Assembly (NCBI GenBank): GCA_902801365.1
Contig: CADCHY010000014.1
Coordinates: forward strand, 1-64,000
Reading direction: 5' to 3'
DNA from: an uncultured Succiniclasticum sp.
Lineage (GTDB): Bacteria; Bacillota; Negativicutes; Acidaminococcales; Acidaminococcaceae
DNA: 64,000 bases
Shown: piece after piece, positions 13,002 to 59,716 of the stretch
Layout: the number at the start of each line of letters is the position of its first letter
Position numbering within the stretch: the stretch's first letter is position 1
The notes under the pieces: model-generated
What the model was told of the DNA's origin: nothing
The model's input: the letters and a program-made list of their open reading frames with translations, nothing else
Databases searched by the model: none
Program-made: the position numbers and the translations under genes

Positions 13002-13118
13002 ATTGTCCGGTTTTAAAATGGACAGTAAATAGACAGTTATGGTTTCTCCCTTCATTTTTGATTTTGCAGATGTTATGTAGAAAGTGAAGACGCAGCAATC
13101 ATGCGGGGTTTCACAGTT

Positions 13119-13313
13119 ATTTCTACGTTTCTACCTTTTTTCGGAAAGACAGCGGAAACATAGAAATAATTTAAACACGCACGTACGTATTTGTTCTGCG
13201 TTTATTATGTATTCTTTTCAGGTAGAAAGGTAGAAACGTAGAAATTATGAATACAACCCGCATGGTTATCATACTTTTGATTTCTACCTTTTTTCTACCT
13301 TTTCTACGTTTCG
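13119..13313. repeat. Cluster of direct and inverted TTTCTACC/GGTAGAAA repeats
   Basis: Units of TTTCTACC or TTTCTACG occur at about 13119-13136 (two), inverted at 13221-13245 (three), and again in the first orientation at 13280-13313 (three). Spacing and alternating orientation suggest iteron-like binding sites or the remnant of a replication origin. The rest of 13002-13496 shows no gene. A strong -10 (TATACT) lies near 13434, upstream of the NifH-like gene. Confidence 0.6.
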
Positions 13314-28179: not shown

Positions 28180-28375
28180 ATCGGGTGGATGAAACATGCG
28201 GAAGAATGCAGGGCCAAAAGGTCAGGCATGCCGAAGGAGTAGCACTCTCAGGCGTTCCGGTGAACACGAAACCGCATGCGGACACAACTCTGGAGATACT
28301 CATTTAATTGAGAGCCGAAGGTGCAAGGGCACAGCCCTAATCTCTCAGGCAAAAGGACAGGGTCGGAACAGGCGG
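28180..28375 (+). ncRNA. Tandem glycine riboswitch
   Basis: Two consecutive glycine aptamers. The second (about 28287-28363) has the textbook pieces: GAGAGCCGAAGGTGCAAG, then ATCTCTCAGGCAAAAGGACAG. The first (about 28180-28286) has GCCGAAGGAGTAGC, CTCTCAGGC and CGGACA. A terminator and a long leader separate it from the symporter gene. Glycine binding probably turns on a glycine/alanine transporter or limits uptake. The sign of control cannot be deduced without mapping the anti-terminator. Confidence 0.93.
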
Positions 28376-47499: not shown

Positions 47500-47632
47500 T
47501 TTTCTGTAAGGCTGTAGCGGCAGGTCCTGCGCGATGGAGGCCTGTGAACCGTGTCAGGTCCGGAAGGAAGCAGCACTAAGCAGATTCCTGCATGCGCCGC
47601 GGGGGTGCCTGCCCTGCGGTCTTACAGGAAAA
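47500..47632 (+). ncRNA. ffs: Signal recognition particle RNA (4.5S-like)
   Basis: The conserved apical segment GTGTCAGGTCCGGAAGGAAG and the following CAGC are present, flanked by long complementary arms whose outer ends are TTTTCTGTAAG and CTTACAGGAAAA. Length is about 130 nt. It pairs with Ffh to target membrane proteins. It sits between tRNA-Ser and dnaX, a common Bacillota neighbourhood. Exact ends are estimated from the terminal stem. Confidence 0.95.
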
Positions 47633-48314: not shown

Positions 48315-48498
48315 AAAGTTGCAAAGAAAAAGATTTCGCAAAACCGTCCACGATTGCTATTTCATGGATTTATCCGCCTGTGGCTTCGAAACTCGGGGCT
48401 TCGCCCCTCAGACAGTCTCGCCACGACGGCGAATTTCATCTCATGAAATTACGCAATCGCTCCCGATGTTTTGCTTAACTCTTCTTCTTTGCAACTTT
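48315..48498. repeat. Giant-hairpin intergenic repeat, copy 1
   Basis: A 184-bp imperfect palindrome. Outer arms AAAGTTGCAAAGAA (48315-48328) and the perfect complement (48485-48498) are unique to this copy. The core 48338-48474 starts GCAAAAC and ends GTTTTGC, has inner arms TTTCATG/CATGAAA and apical stem GGGGC-TTC-GCCCC. The core is shared with 53717-53922 and 59532-59716. It lies between a small gene and the dnaX promoter, and T-rich sequence follows the right arm. Confidence 0.9.
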
Positions 48499-48529
48499 AT
48501 TTTTTCTCTTAGATTTCATATTAATTTCA

Positions 48530-53621: not shown

Positions 53622-53704
53622 TTGAAGTATCCTTTCTTTTGTGCTATAGTATATATACAATCAAACAGCCCCTCATTTGGCCCTTCTCGCAAGGGCTTTT
53701 TTTT
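53622..53704 (+). ncRNA. Candidate small RNA of about 48 nt with own promoter and terminator
   Basis: TTGAAG (53622-53627), 17 bp, TATAGT (53645-53650) would start transcription near 53657. The strong terminator GCCCTT-ctcgc-AAGGGC with eight T ends at 53704. No reading frame fits between. It lies between the LCP gene and giant-hairpin copy 2, 13 bp from the latter. The terminator may alternatively serve the LCP gene alone. Confidence 0.45.
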
Positions 53705-53716
53705 GCGCAAAATTTG

Positions 53717-53922
53717 AACGTTAAAAAAACTAACGGCGGGCAAAGCCTCGCAAAAACGTCAACGATTGCTATTCCATGGACTTGTTCGCCTGTGGCTTCA
53801 AAACTCGGTGCTTCGCACCTCAAACAGTTGAAGCCACGGGCATCTCATTTCATCTCATGGAATGACGCAATCGTTTCCTATGTTTTGCTTAGGCCTTGCC
53901 CGCCGTTAGTCTTTTTAACGTT
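53717..53922. repeat. Giant-hairpin intergenic repeat, copy 2
   Basis: A 206-bp imperfect palindrome between convergent LCP and tex genes. Outer arms 53717-53743 and 53896-53922 are complementary over 27 bp with one mismatch and are unlike those of the other copies. Within the shared core, inner arms are ACGATTGC/GCAATCGT and TTCCATG/CATGGAA, a 10-bp stem GTGGCTTCAA/TTGAAGCCAC surrounds the apical stem GGTGC-TTC-GCACC. It ends 2 bp before the tex stop codon, so it is probably in both transcripts' 3' ends. Confidence 0.92.
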
Positions 53923-59531: not shown

Positions 59532-59716
59532 GTGATGCTGTCAGGGAAAGACATCGCAAAACGCTCACGTCTTGCTATTCCATGGACTCATTCACCTGTG
59601 GCTTCGGAACTCGGGACTTCGTCCCTCAGACAGCCTCGCCACGACGGCGAATTTCATCTCATGGAATGACGCAATCCGTTCGAAATTTTGCTCATGTCTT
59701 TCCCCGACAGCGTCAC
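59532..59716. repeat. Giant-hairpin intergenic repeat, copy 3
   Basis: A 185-bp imperfect palindrome starting 25 bp after rlmH. Outer arms 59532-59554 and 59694-59716 pair over 23 bp with two G-T type differences and do not resemble the arms of copies 1 and 2. The core is shared, with inner arms TTCCATG/CATGGAA and apical stem GGGAC-TTC-GTCCC. No T tract follows, so a terminator role is least obvious here. Confidence 0.92.

Follow-up and report, generated by a model that had tools for sequence, protein, structure and literature searches.

The three intergenic hairpins at positions 48315-48498, 53717-53922 and 59532-59716 of the window, by which we mean the whole 64,000-nucleotide stretch of DNA analysed here, are probably copies of one palindromic DNA repeat, ~170-240 bp long, which is non-coding, specific to a single genus and MITE-like in character. 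In the reading that we favour (probability about 0.6), this repeat would often serve as a bidirectional terminator and would be kept palindromic, and flipped, by template switching. The matching changes in the two arms of the hairpins probably come from the way in which folded DNA is copied and not from a working RNA.

Structure of the hairpin segments

The three segments were found where the first-pass annotation had placed them, and each folds as a single long imperfect hairpin in which a conserved core of ~137 bp lies inside arms that are specific to the copy. The parts of each copy are listed below; no strand is assigned to the arms.

48315-48337: left arm of copy 1 (AAAGTTGCAAAGAAAAAGATTTC), from the fold; in genomes G005, G007 and G012 these arms are found as a plain terminator that lacks the core
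48338-48474, + strand: core of copy 1, GCAAAAC...GTTTTGC, 137 bp, apex GGGGC/GCCCC, from sequence and fold
48475-48498: right arm of copy 1, followed by a T-tract at 48500-48505
53717-53749: left arm of copy 2 (AACGTTAAAAAAACTAACGGCGGGCAAAGCCTC), from the fold; the same arms occur without the core in G005 and G007
53750-53888, + strand: core of copy 2, GCAAAAAC...GTTTTGC, 139 bp, apex GGTGC/GCACC, from sequence and fold
53889-53922: right arm of copy 2, from sequence and fold
59532-59555: left arm of copy 3 (GTGATGCTGTCAGGGAAAGACATC), similar to the TTATGCTGTCAGGCAAAGGC ends that the homogeneous G001 copies have
59556-59691, + strand: core of copy 3, GCAAAAC...ATTTTGC, 136 bp, apex GGGAC/GTCCC, from sequence and fold
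59692-59716: right arm of copy 3; arm remnants alone are present at this site in G005 and G007

Fold stability was compared with that of dinucleotide shuffles and gave z scores of -14.5, -8.4 and -8.3 for copies 1 to 3; the reverse strand of copy 2 folded equally well. The apical stems and the inner arms reported earlier (TTTCATG/CATGAAA in copy 1, TTCCATG/CATGGAA in copies 2 and 3) were confirmed. The boundary boxes reported as GCAAAAC and (G)TTTTGC hold overall, with two exceptions, GCAAAAAC on the left of copy 2 and ATTTTGC on the right of copy 3, and the core, put earlier at about 137-140 bp, was measured as 137, 139 and 136 bp. What had been missed is that the outer arms are wholly different between copies yet paired within each copy.

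Across the family the core is ~134-139 bp long and bounded by a GCAAAAC-like box and a GTTTTGC-like one; it contains nested stems and, at the apex, a stem whose sequence varies. The apical loop is almost always TNC or TNT, and nearly all copies have TNC (GNA/ANA on the other strand), a loop that resembles stable DNA mini-hairpins. The outer arms are unrelated in sequence between copies and complementary within each of them, the duplex formed by a copy's own arms having a mean of -28.2 kcal/mol against -11.9 for mismatched arms. In some copies the apex is missing or the apical domain is of another kind. In the variants L028:1491-1720, L081, L128, L147 and L168, another hairpin domain (AAGTCGCGTTG...CCGCCTCCCACTTCCTC...) that is common to several species stands in place of the apex and the core's right half. 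The repeat contains no reading frame of note, and Rfam gave no match at the gathering score and none over copy 2 at E<=1, so that the earlier statement that neither a reading frame nor a known RNA signature is present holds.

Distribution of the repeat

A search for further copies had been proposed in the first-pass annotation. In the window's own Succiniclasticum genome (G000; 2.05 Mb in 53 contigs) it returned 27 near-complete copies plus fragments, at ~30 places, and the family with a covarying core is thus real and larger than was noted. Sampling across genomes yielded 152 unique near-complete copies. Of 14 Succiniclasticum genomes, 11 carry the repeat. When a covariance model made from 25 copies was run against 380 Negativicutes genomes, it matched 11, every one of them Succiniclasticum, and none outside this genus. 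The three Succiniclasticum genomes that lack the repeat (G004, G009 and G010) form together a deep branch in the tree. Named carriers are Succiniclasticum ruminis DSM 9236 and metagenome-assembled Acidaminococcaceae and Selenomonadales bins; the source label of many of these bins is the gut of ruminants. Carriage by plasmids, phages or viral contigs was rejected, since no matches were found in plasmid, phage or viral collections.

Genomic setting

Gene setting was judged from simple reading frames, and on this basis 48 of 124 classifiable copies lie between convergent genes against a baseline of 61/333 (p=1e-5), while divergent settings are depleted (11/124 copies against 78/333; p=3e-4). The nearest reading frame is at a median of ~40 bp, and the hairpins lie ~35 nt past stop codons. 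The orientation of the core relative to transcription shows no preference (30 co-directional, 35 opposite). An outward T-tract was found on 73% of the sides in convergent settings, against 8% with an A-tract; between tandem genes, neither side was favoured by the T-tract. From these sequence features the repeat is predicted to be, in many places, a bidirectional intrinsic terminator.

Covariation

Pairing was scored in 110 distinct copies. Standard pairs made up 93.6% of cells, compared with 81.8% in shuffled alignments and 36-50% when the partners were slid. Doubly changed paired cells numbered 767 against 232±20 in the shuffles, an excess over expectation that is not a formal probability because the shuffles disregard relatedness; the slid-partner controls preserve relatedness and still fall far short of the observed pairing. 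Changes on both sides were found in 42 of the 56 pairs. At shared sites, the arms showed 35 double Watson-Crick changes and 42 single changes.

If an RNA were under selection, G·U should be favoured over A·C. Broken Watson-Crick pairs comprised 107 G·U and 135 A·C, G·U being no commoner. A G-U pair is conserved at two core positions on the + strand, which speaks slightly for RNA. It had been argued from the paired changes that the folded form is what is kept. This is not supported, since G·U is not commoner than A·C, the orientation of the core is random and cores are flipped in place.

In-place inversion of the core

Comparison between genomes of the sequences flanking each copy, after removal of duplicates, gave 31 sites present in at least two genomes and 85 genome pairs. 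The core was inverted and the flanks were not in 32 of the 85 pairs, at 15 of the 31 shared sites. By class of flank divergence, flipped cores were on average 84-94% identical, against 83±4% for random copies; in the most diverged flipped pairs, turning over and replacement are indistinguishable. In the eight flipped pairs with flanks of >91% identity, the cores were 85-98% identical when read in the flipped sense, the closest pairs giving 91-98% with the single exception at 85%. As this identity is above that of random copies, the same element was turned over, not replaced, in most of the closest pairs. The clearest case is L002 and L061, in which the flanks are 98-99% identical, the outermost arm sequence is shared and the core is inverted.

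The breakpoints of the flips lie mostly 6-35 bp outside the core box, at a depth that differs between pairs. The longest exact inverted repeat had a median of 11 bp and was <21 bp in 31 of the 32 flipped pairs, which makes k-mer assembly ambiguity unlikely, and an assembly artefact behind the flips was judged unlikely on this ground. The flipped fraction was flat with divergence (4/10 at a flank identity of at least 95%, 12/25 at 85-90%); inversion is therefore saturated, or is partly an assembly or mixed-population effect. The copies of G001 have two distinguishable ends, alpha (AAATTGAAGTTTGTG) and beta (AAATCAGAATTTATG), and those that could be read carry almost always one alpha and one beta, with the core in either orientation.

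Orthologous sites and loss of the core

At the site of copy 2 (53717-53922), G012 carries the same element and G008 an inverted copy. The hairpin of G013 is short and of another kind, but retains TTTGCAAAAC. In G005 and G007 the arms stand alone, as CTAACGGCGGGCAAG-AAC-TTGCCCGCCGTTAG (G007 form) followed by T's, an allele that by its sequence is a predicted ordinary intrinsic terminator. G005 and G007 are sister genomes, and on the tree their allele is a single core loss. At the site of copy 1 (48315), G005, G007 and G012 have the plain terminator with the same arms, and gain of the core in G000 and its loss in the other three are both compatible with this pattern. At the site of copy 3 (59532), the element is present in G003 and G012, and arm remnants are present in G005 and G007. 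Two further core-deleted alleles that keep the arms were found, in L011 and L083.

Insertion into the loops of pre-existing terminators looked plausible at the site of copy 2. As a general rule it was rejected, as the tree points to core loss there in G005 and G007, and some empty alleles have no hairpin (for example L105 compared with L011 and L091). L105:2135-2369 of G003 holds another giant hairpin family, at the site where G000 has the element (L011).

Among orthologues, differences amount to 8% in the apical loop and 9% in the core stems, the two being equally conserved, and the rate of change in the core does not exceed that of the mostly coding flanks. This suggests some constraint on the core, beyond the template-switch model.

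Mobility and search for an enzyme

The family has spread, as indicated by dispersed copies and by sites that are empty in relatives. Direct repeats flanking the copies were no longer than those in shuffled flank pairs, so no target site duplication was seen. An IS630-type DDE_3 transposase, prompted by a possible TA duplication, was rejected, since its gene (PF13358) is absent from all 14 Succiniclasticum genomes and the duplication signal is missing. The Y1 transposase (PF01797) is absent from G001, G002, G003 and G013, and was rejected as mobiliser because G001 has 28 near-identical ends. The end sequences were also used to look for an element that shares them and carries a gene, and this gave only hairpin copies, solo ends and other hairpins.

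The alpha and beta ends are common to the copies of G001; in the other genomes the outer arms are copy-specific. The many near-identical copies in G001 had suggested a recent transposition burst there. This was weakened by the finding that other species also have an element at 8 of the 10 sites that could be tested, in a comparison set enriched for element-bearing DNA; homogenisation or re-invasion is as likely as a recent burst. G001 also contains other giant hairpins (L285, L289), and one such family shares the alpha end, which offers a lead to a shared enzyme. In G005 (S. ruminis DSM 9236), many partial Y1 transposase genes lie at contig ends, and an abundant IS200-like element probably breaks this assembly.

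Neighbouring features in the window

A candidate small RNA lies at 53622-53705 (+ strand), just upstream of the hairpin at 53717-53922. It consists of a promoter-like TTGAAG/TATAGT, ~45 nt containing AGCCCCTCATTTGGCCCTT, and a terminator. Among 200 Negativicutes genomes, 32 contain its 19-nt motif, each a single time; all belong to the same family (Acidaminococcaceae) and represent 11 genera; promoter-like and terminator sequences are also present in the relatives inspected. The only Rfam resemblance was to SpF51, below threshold (E 0.13). A long hairpin at 13097-13267, with arms of ~42 nt made of TTTCTAC-type repeats (z -7.5), is unrelated to the core-bearing family. A terminator-like 43-nt repeat around AACAGCCGCAGAAAAATCTACGGCTGTT is present at 57-99 and 2835-2877 (98% identical), and similar sequences adjoin hairpin elements in G001 and G002. 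Two Rfam matches in the window, a glycine riboswitch aptamer (28280-28370) and a small SRP RNA (47518-47617), are ordinary.

Discussion

Under the favoured reading, extrusion of the hairpin would cause the template to be switched from one arm to the other at the replication fork. Paired changes would arise when one arm is copied from its partner, and switching between strands would turn the core over. The arms, with their A/T tracts, would act as a bidirectional intrinsic terminator and would be the part that the host keeps; the core would be dispensable at many sites, and its loss would leave an ordinary terminator. Template switching between the arms of inverted repeats is reported to lead to homogenisation of the arms and inversion of the spacer (PMC8604942), and to create, and possibly maintain, paired stems (PMC8794818). 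In the same work no observation is held to support template switching more strongly than a compensatory change accompanied by loop inversion, which was found to be extremely rare (PMC8794818). Paired multi-base arm changes and spacer inversion were found together here on a large scale, the combination that template switching predicts (PMC8604942, PMC8794818). Recombination between the arms or cruciform resolution could also give the same outcomes.

The same palindromes could be maintained by the host, as terminators or as protection of mRNA 3' ends, with compensatory changes fixed singly and flips arising as rare by-products of recombination between the arms. The enrichment between convergent genes, the outward T-tracts, the position ~35 nt after stop codons and the persistence of arms as plain terminators after core loss all agree with such selection, but its single-change intermediates are no more often G·U than A·C, the inner core stems, which termination does not need, covary too, and the flips are not rare; we regard it as unlikely. 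A structured RNA with a conserved fold, either a cis element of the 3' UTR or an independent small RNA, would account for the strong covariation, the two conserved G-U positions of the core and the conservation of the unpaired apical loop. Against it stand the lack of a wobble preference, an orientation that is random relative to genes and inverted between orthologues, the replacement or deletion of the apex and right half in many copies, and the absence of an Rfam match, which together leave it very improbable. It is the weakest of the three explanations put forward in the first-pass annotation, the two others, a fold-back MITE-like element and a DNA structure, being those that fit best.

Inversion in place at many loci is what an inverton would show, that is, a core flipped by a site-specific recombinase to control neighbouring genes. 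The depth of the breakpoints varies with no fixed crossover site, the arms are unrelated in sequence between loci and the copies lie mostly at gene 3' ends, not at promoters, so this explanation is given very little weight. An ordinary MITE mobilised by a transposase, its flipping and pairing being incidental, is agreeable with the terminal inverted alpha and beta ends in G001 and with a non-coding, dispersed repeat whose presence varies between species. It is nevertheless rather improbable in view of the missing target duplication signal, the absence of a DDE_3 gene from the genus and of a Y1 gene from G001, and pairing that the terminal repeats of a decaying MITE would lose and that those of the hairpin repeat retain.

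Covariation is the standard evidence for functional RNA. A family that covaries strongly, has no wobble preference and is inverted between orthologues calls for caution in passing from covariation to RNA, and provides a test set for that step. The repeat also bears on the open question of how the two sides of a stem change together, and with a culturable carrier, Succiniclasticum ruminis DSM 9236, the rate is measurable. It is proposed tentatively, at slightly less than even odds, that strong covariation is created here, in a naturally occurring bacterial system, by replication template switching at giant hairpins and not by RNA selection, that the inversions of >130 bp testify independently to these events at dozens of loci, and that new transcription terminators arise from a dispersed repeat on loss of its core.

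Comparison with known systems

Bacterial MITEs such as RUP, SPRITE and QMITE (PMC10969869) are likewise small, non-coding, intergenic and dispersed, with inverted ends and a stable stem-loop, and some are terminator-like. At 170-240 bp the hairpin repeat falls within the 50-500 bp of MITEs and has no transposase gene. It differs in having neither a target duplication nor a transposase that could be found (DDE_3 and Y1 were tested), in arms that diverge pairwise and in a core that flips relative to the ends and flanks. The repeat is called MITE-like, and membership is not claimed, because neither a target duplication nor a cognate enzyme of the DDE_3 or Y1 families was found.

The REP and REPIN sequences associated with TnpA-REP (PMC8266576, PMC3733652) are also extragenic palindromes dispersed in many copies. 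They are palindromes of 20-40 bp that go with a Y1 transposase (RAYT), whereas the hairpin repeat is at least 5 times longer and the Y1 family is absent from G001 despite the large homogeneous set of copies there. In invertons and invertible promoters (PMC11892184), a segment between inverted repeats is inverted in place, as here; the hairpin repeat, in contrast, has no apparent fixed recombination site, lies at gene 3' ends and has arms that differ at each locus. Template-switch mutations at quasi-palindromes (PMC8794818, PMC8604942) share with it both the homogenisation of arms and the inversion of the spacer. The published spacer inversions are short, a few bases in length and reaching 7-8 nt in rRNA loops, whereas those described here span >130 bp and were found at 15 of 31 sites.
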